NCBI GenBank assembly: GCA_029862085.1
Contig: JAOTXZ010000004.1
Location: 1-64,000 of the forward strand
DNA from: Candidatus Nitrosopumilus sp.
Lineage (GTDB): Archaea; Thermoproteota; Nitrososphaeria; Nitrososphaerales; Nitrosopumilaceae
Direction of reading: 5' to 3'
DNA: 64,000 nucleotides
How positions within the stretch are numbered: the first letter of the stretch is position 1; every line of letters begins with the position of its first letter. Below, piece by piece: positions 30,339-39,684 of this stretch. The notes under the pieces were generated by a model that was given only the letters and a program-made list of their open reading frames with translations, made no database searches and was not told where the DNA came from. The translations under genes and the position numbers were made by a program.

Positions 30339-30406
30339 ATTTCCATCAGAAGGTGAGTTTGCAAGACAAAATAAAATTAACTAAAATGAAATTATCAGAT
30401 GCTTCA

Positions 30407-30475
30407 TTACTCATAATCCTCATCATAGATCAGACGGCTTTTCCGCTCATCATCAGCATCCAGGATAAATGTCAT
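30407..30475 (-). CDS. Possible 22-aa acidic micro-ORF (MTFILDADDERKSRLIYDEDYE)
   Basis: ATG to TAA open frame; only composition supports coding. Confidence 0.25.
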   Translation of the reverse strand: MTFILDADDERKSRLIYDEDYE

Positions 30476-30605
30476 TATAGATTATTTTAGTATAGTTTTT
30501 TGTTTTTTCTAGTTATAGTGTATAGTTTTTTTGAAAAAAATTAAAAATTACCACAAGTAGGAATCAATGATCTAGCTTTTATTCTATTAGTGCCTATATC
30601 ATGTA

Positions 30606-30713
30606 GGAAGCTGATACGATATTTTCACTATCGCATCAATACTGGCATCGGTTTACTGGTGAAGAATACGGTCGACACTACGTAAAGGATGCAGCCAGCA
30701 TTAGTCAGCTTCC
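30606..30713. ncRNA. Candidate structured RNA in the dph6-like / DLH intergenic region (strand not determined)
   Basis: Nested helices: P1 GGAAGCTGA (30606-30614)/TCAGCTTCC (30705-30713); P2 CGATA/TATCG (30617-30633); P3 CTGGC/GCCAG (30642-30646/30694-30698) and TTTAC-TGGTG/CACTA-c-GTAAA (30652-30661/30676-30686). Confidence 0.6.
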
Positions 30714-30781
30714 GAATTATTCTAACTAGGAAAGAAATTATTAAATTTGATTTGGTGTATTTTTTTGGTTTCTGAGAAGAA

Positions 30782-30853
30782 TTATTCTTCATCAAGAATA
30801 ATCCATGATAGACCTCTTACTTCTTCCCATGATTCTTTCTTGGAACGTGTCAT
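30782..30853 (-). CDS. Possible 23-aa micro-ORF (MTRSKKESWEEVRGLSWIILDEE)
   Basis: ATG to TAA open frame adjacent to the RNA candidate; protein-like composition. Confidence 0.3.
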   Translation of the reverse strand: MTRSKKESWEEVRGLSWIILDEE

Positions 30854-39557: not shown

Positions 39558-39684
39558 CCCAAGTTAGCTCAGCCTGGTAGAGCTTCCGGCTGTAGTTGTT
39601 GGCTTTAGATGGCTGACCGAATAACAGCATATCAGGCATACAGAAACCGGGTTGTCGAAGGTTCAATTCCTTCACTTGGGACCA
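39558..39684 (+). tRNA. tRNA-Tyr(GTA) with 50-nt intron at 39596-39645 and encoded CCA
   Basis: Acceptor CCCAAGT/ACTTGGG, D arm GCTC..GAGC, anticodon stem TCCGG/CCGGG with loop CTGTAG|A, T arm GAAGG-TTCAATT-CCTTC, discriminator A then CCA; C1-G72 as expected for archaeal tRNA-Tyr. Confidence 0.93.

Follow-up and report, generated by a model that had tools for sequence, protein, structure and literature searches.

A conserved three-way-junction RNA of one archaeal family, probably encoded by a stand-alone small RNA gene

Background

The question raised by this locus is whether a block of 108 bases in an intergenic gap of Candidatus Nitrosopumilus sp. encodes an RNA and, if so, whether that RNA belongs to a known class, controls a neighbouring gene or acts on its own. 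In the sea, few cells are as abundant as the ammonia-oxidizing archaea of this family, and no regulatory RNA family was found described for them in the literature. The block lies at 30606-30713 of the window, by which we mean the whole 64,000-nucleotide stretch of DNA that was analysed. A first reading of the window, made from its letters alone (the sequence-only reading), had listed the block as a structured RNA candidate.

Results

Location and fold of the block

Sequence and coordinates of the block were as the sequence-only reading had given them. The gap, put there at about 650 bp, measures 656 bp from the dph6-like gene to the next large ORF. The dph6-like gene, which lies on the - strand, matches Diphthami_syn_2 (PF01902, E 1e-52), and the other flank of the gap is formed by a + strand gene of the dienelactone hydrolase family. 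Two further items lie near the block. Directly upstream of the dph6-like gene, about 150 nt from the block, is a C/D-box sRNA candidate at 30402-30457 (-), matched by Rfam sR41 with 32.3 bits (E 1.1e-5; cut-off 54 bits) and by several other C/D models; many genomes of the archaeal family share the conserved stretch 30398-30462. A mini-ORF of 23 codons at 30782-30853 (-) was read by eye as MTRSKKESWEEVRGLSWIILDEE. Several genomes of the genus have DNA similar to it on other contigs, so it may stand for a family of small proteins or for what is left of one.

The whole conserved block (30606-30713, +) folds as a three-way junction. As had been described, it is closed by a 9-bp helix, P1, in which GGAAGCTGA at 30606-30614 pairs with TCAGCTTCC at 30705-30713, and contains a hairpin, P2 (30617-30633, +), with CGATA at 30617-30621 paired to TATCG at 30629-30633. 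The long arm, P3 (30645-30692, +), is made up of GCATC/GATGC (30645-30649/30688-30692), TTTAC/GTAAA (30652-30656/30682-30686), TGGTG/CACTA (30657-30661/30676-30680) and an apical stem-loop, GA-ATACGG-TC (30664-30673), all on the + strand. The description of this arm had to be amended. Its inner GCATC/GATGC pairing is backed by relatives, but the outer CTGGC/GCCAG pairing is not, being optional in the window sequence and disrupted in a same-genus relative (G008, ATCGC). At the tip, where a 14-nt loop had been drawn, relatives back a 2-bp GA/TC stem around a 6-nt loop. The statement that almost every base pairs was too strong, as about 70 of the 108 bases are paired in the minimum-energy fold. 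A pseudoknot between the loop of hairpin P2 and P3 was judged by eye and set aside, not being conserved across clades.

On its own the block has a fold energy of -35.0 kcal/mol, whereas dinucleotide shuffles average -21.6 kcal/mol (sd 3.3), which gives z -4.1; none of 200 shuffles reached the block's value. With 10-nt flanks, z was -3.3 on the + strand and -4.6 on the - strand, the latter being slightly better. Since both strands fold well, the strand cannot be read from fold energy alone.

Distribution of the block

The gap region matched nine other genomes of the genus, and all ten carry the block with an identical 9-bp closing stem. Mean pairwise identity among the ten was 0.89 for the block, 0.79 for an upstream element described below and 0.58-0.67 for the flanks. 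A covariance model built from these ten sequences matched at full length in 76 of 251 genomes from the archaeal family; models refined on 70 and 90 sequences did so in 102 and 104, respectively, of 400 genomes of the order. All carriers among these 400 belong to one family (f1, the Nitrosopumilus/Nitrosarchaeum group) and fall into 6 of 66 genera. The RNA thus occurs in roughly a quarter of the searched genomes of the order, and it is new to Rfam 15.

A DNA pattern search of named genomes matched 43 stretches. Forty lay in records titled Nitrosopumilus, Nitrosarchaeum, Thaumarchaeota and similar, and Candidatus Nitrosopumilus salaria and Candidatus Nitrosomaritimum khambatensis are among the records matched; the remaining three were bacterial, about the level estimated for chance. 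Viral contigs gave no match to a three-part pattern that covers part of the RNA family only.

Carrier genomes hold one to six copies. One copy was seen in the window's own genome (79% complete), and throughout the window's genus the RNA is single-copy and at one site. In some genomes (G170, G172, G174) two copies in divergent orientation lie 0.4-2.7 kb apart. Copies sharing a genome have diverged and are not recent. A complete genome of the genus Nitrosopumilus (1,645,259 bp) gave no match to the RNA; this absence, together with the patchy distribution, indicates that the RNA is dispensable. When sites at the UDG-like gene were compared, genomes lacking the RNA carried other sequence there and no clean insertion boundary was found. 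At two loci of this kind (L236, L238) a conserved intergenic stretch lies beside the RNA copy, about 200-400 nt past the UDG-like stop codon; it has GACGAGG and CCTCGT near its ends and GCTGAAATTCAGAG and AAACTTTGAGGAAG inside, gave no Rfam match and is possibly a further new RNA.

Covariation and strand

Within the genus, covariation was scarce among the ten genomes, with 1 of 31 pairs compensatory plus a few G-U changes. Across the family, compensatory changes were abundant and bore out the structured RNA candidate. In the 70-sequence alignment 94.2% of pair cells were standard, 20 of 31 pairs had both-side changes, and cells with both-side changes numbered 225 against 75 in shuffles; in the 90-sequence alignment the values were 92.4%, 27 of 31, and 411 against 121. 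On no measure did any of 500 shuffles match the observed values, and in the 90-sequence alignment a shift of the partner by 1-3 columns lowered pairing to 36-44%. Both alignments (A5, A6) were fitted to the structure of the model, so their pair counts lean towards that structure, and the shuffles ignore relatedness; for these reasons the covariation figures are not to be read as probabilities. Folds of single sequences, made free of the model, gave the same three-way junction for three relatives (L044, L099, L114), and for a fourth (L128) the closing helix was kept while the interior differed.

The pair counts of the 90-sequence alignment extend over all parts of the structure. Both strands of P1 are supported, with both-side changes at 8 of 9 pairs and 95.8% of cells paired; in P2 they were found at 5 of 5 pairs (87.9% of cells paired), and in P3 (helices 3 and 4) at 12 of 15. 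The apical 2-bp stem had 93.7% of cells paired. The commonest form of this stem-loop in the family is GC-(A)UAC..-GC, and a U in it (alignment column 89) is invariant in 87 sequences.

G-U cells numbered 274 and A-C cells 53. Because G-U so far outnumbers A-C, the + strand is the RNA. The analysis establishes a conserved RNA structure together with its strand, copy number and phylogenetic range. Members of the family are 90-108 nt long, and of 88 loci 87 have no ORF of at least 100 aa spanning the RNA; both points argue against coding. Very probably, the block is the gene of a non-coding RNA that folds and is about 108 bases long.

Promoter-like element and 3' end

A BRE/TATA-like element, GATCTAGCTTTTATT, lies at 30569-30583 (+), with its GATC starting at -37. 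In most loci the GATC starts 36-38 nt 5' of the RNA, with a T-rich, TATA-like box after it (GATC...TTTTAT). GATC was present in this upstream region in 66 of 89 loci (3.7 in shuffles), and GATC plus TTT in 59 of 89 (0.6 in shuffles). Within the genus the element is 79% identical, compared with 58% across the upstream 80 nt. It was not enriched in the window's own genome as a whole over its reversed control. The GATC element is absent upstream of the RNase P and SRP RNA genes; the SRP RNA genes carry a box of the ordinary AAATATA type there.

On the 3' side, a run of four T within 15 nt of the closing stem was found in 52 of 88 loci (15.5 in shuffled sequence). In the window's genus, a T7 tract at 30760-30766 (+), 47 nt beyond the closing stem, is a possible transcription end. 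The GATC/TATA-like element and the T-tract would be the putative promoter and terminator.

Comparison with known RNA classes

No Rfam 15 family matched the block at the gathering cut-off, and relatives at divergent loci were likewise free of matches. The absence of tRNA and C/D features from the block, proposed earlier, agrees with these searches. ARAGORN found no tRNA or tmRNA in the window, and the Rfam C/D models matched at 30393-30483 (-) and weakly at 30721-30777 (+), never in the block. Rfam's tRNA model matched the window only at 39558-39681 (+), outside the block. That match (124 bases, 49.7 bits) exceeds the 71-position model, ARAGORN was silent on it, and it probably carries an intron.

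No ACA box follows P1, as had been noted: the window reads GAATTATTCTAAC there, and the aligned 3' flanks, mostly T-rich, have none that is conserved. The literature held no description of this RNA that we could find, in a search that covered few subscription papers and preprints, so a prior description may exist. The main text of the 2010 paper on 104 motifs names neither Nitrosopumilus nor Cenarchaeum. Since neither a Rfam match nor a description was found, the RNA is filed as a new family of stand-alone structured small RNA.

Discussion

The varied surroundings of the RNA bear on whether it serves as a cis-acting 5' leader, that is, a riboswitch or protein-binding leader which controls the gene downstream, such as DUF72, and whose closing stem and T-tract form a terminator. 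In many Nitrosopumilus genomes, those of the DUF72 clade, a DUF72 gene begins about 33 nt downstream of the RNA; in another genus (g18) a TFE-like gene lies 5-46 nt downstream; and in 23 of 88 loci an ORF starts on the same strand within 150 nt, as a leader would show. These 23 are, however, the only such loci, the nearest downstream ORF is convergent in 35 of 88, and the downstream gene varies by clade. In the window's genus the dph6-like gene is divergent from the RNA, and the next large ORF is 127-631 nt off and of varying identity, or convergent. UDG-like, histidine-kinase-like, AsnC-domain, MFS-, TFB-like and TFE-like genes are the neighbours at other loci (some named from Pfam matches, the rest read from their sequences). 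A fixed place on the same strand before one gene or regulon, the mark of a riboswitch or leader, is found in the DUF72 clade only and not family-wide. The varied context favours a context-free, trans-acting gene; the RNA may serve as a leader in the DUF72 clade, and as an account of the whole family we consider a leader unlikely.

Guide RNAs of about this length are numerous in Archaea, and a C/D sRNA candidate lies nearby, so an unusual modification guide or a divergent member of a known archaeal class (C/D, H/ACA, 5S, SRP, RNase P) beyond the reach of Rfam deserves mention. We regard it as quite improbable: the block and its relatives at six divergent loci gave no Rfam match even at relaxed thresholds, RNase P and SRP RNA are located elsewhere in the same genome, and a conserved ACA box after P1 is missing. 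Several copies at different sites in some genomes, and a block that folds on both strands, would also suit a spreading DNA element that folds when single-stranded, such as an attC-like integron site, a MITE or a REP-type palindrome. Such an element, if attC-like, should show no preference for G-U pairs on one strand, whereas the G-U bias here is strong and favours one strand; the promoter-like element stands at a near-fixed distance, copies within one genome have diverged, and the window's genus has one copy at one site. To this last reading we attach very little credence.

The block is probably a stand-alone gene for a small non-coding RNA that folds as a three-way junction and acts in trans, and whose family is new and restricted to a single archaeal family. 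Trans action is most likely because the unit of promoter, RNA and T-tract has neighbours that change from clade to clade and, in some genomes, is present more than once. The + strand would be transcribed from its own promoter, putatively the GATC and TATA-like box some 37 nt 5' of the RNA. As covariation shows, the RNA folds into closing helix P1, short hairpin P2 and long arm P3; the internal loop of P3 is asymmetric, and its apical loop is conserved and contains UAC. The transcript would end at the T-rich sequence past P1. In trans, it would serve either as a regulatory RNA or as the RNA component of a small ribonucleoprotein, and the internal and apical loops of P3 would be its likely contact sites. 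These archaea have several transcription factor B paralogues. A more specific proposal, which we put forward only tentatively, is that the RNA is the core of a new family-specific ribonucleoprotein with a dedicated GATC plus TATA-like promoter type, maybe read by a TFB paralogue. With members in cultivated genera, strong covariation and a promoter-like element that is conserved, the family is open to testing by RNA-seq.

Among known systems, sRNA162 of Methanosarcina mazei (PMC3510493) and sRNA132 of Haloferax volcanii (PMC6560208) are archaeal trans-acting intergenic sRNAs with experimentally supported targets. They resemble the present RNA as intergenic archaeal sRNA genes acting away from their own locus, which for our RNA is a prediction; they differ in that their case rests on experimental targets and ours on family-wide covariation over a three-way junction, and the likeness implies no sequence or structural relation. 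Tan1, an abundant 229-nt ncRNA of marine group II Euryarchaeota whose expression has been demonstrated (PMC5069720), is likewise a lineage-specific structured ncRNA of marine archaea without an assigned function. It is twice as long, belongs to another phylum and is expressed, whereas the present RNA is known from sequence, and the two are likened by description.

In 5S rRNA-type three-way junctions the two ends form a closing helix, and there are two arms. The block shares this outline and nothing further, as it has no Rfam 5S match and its arms differ in size.
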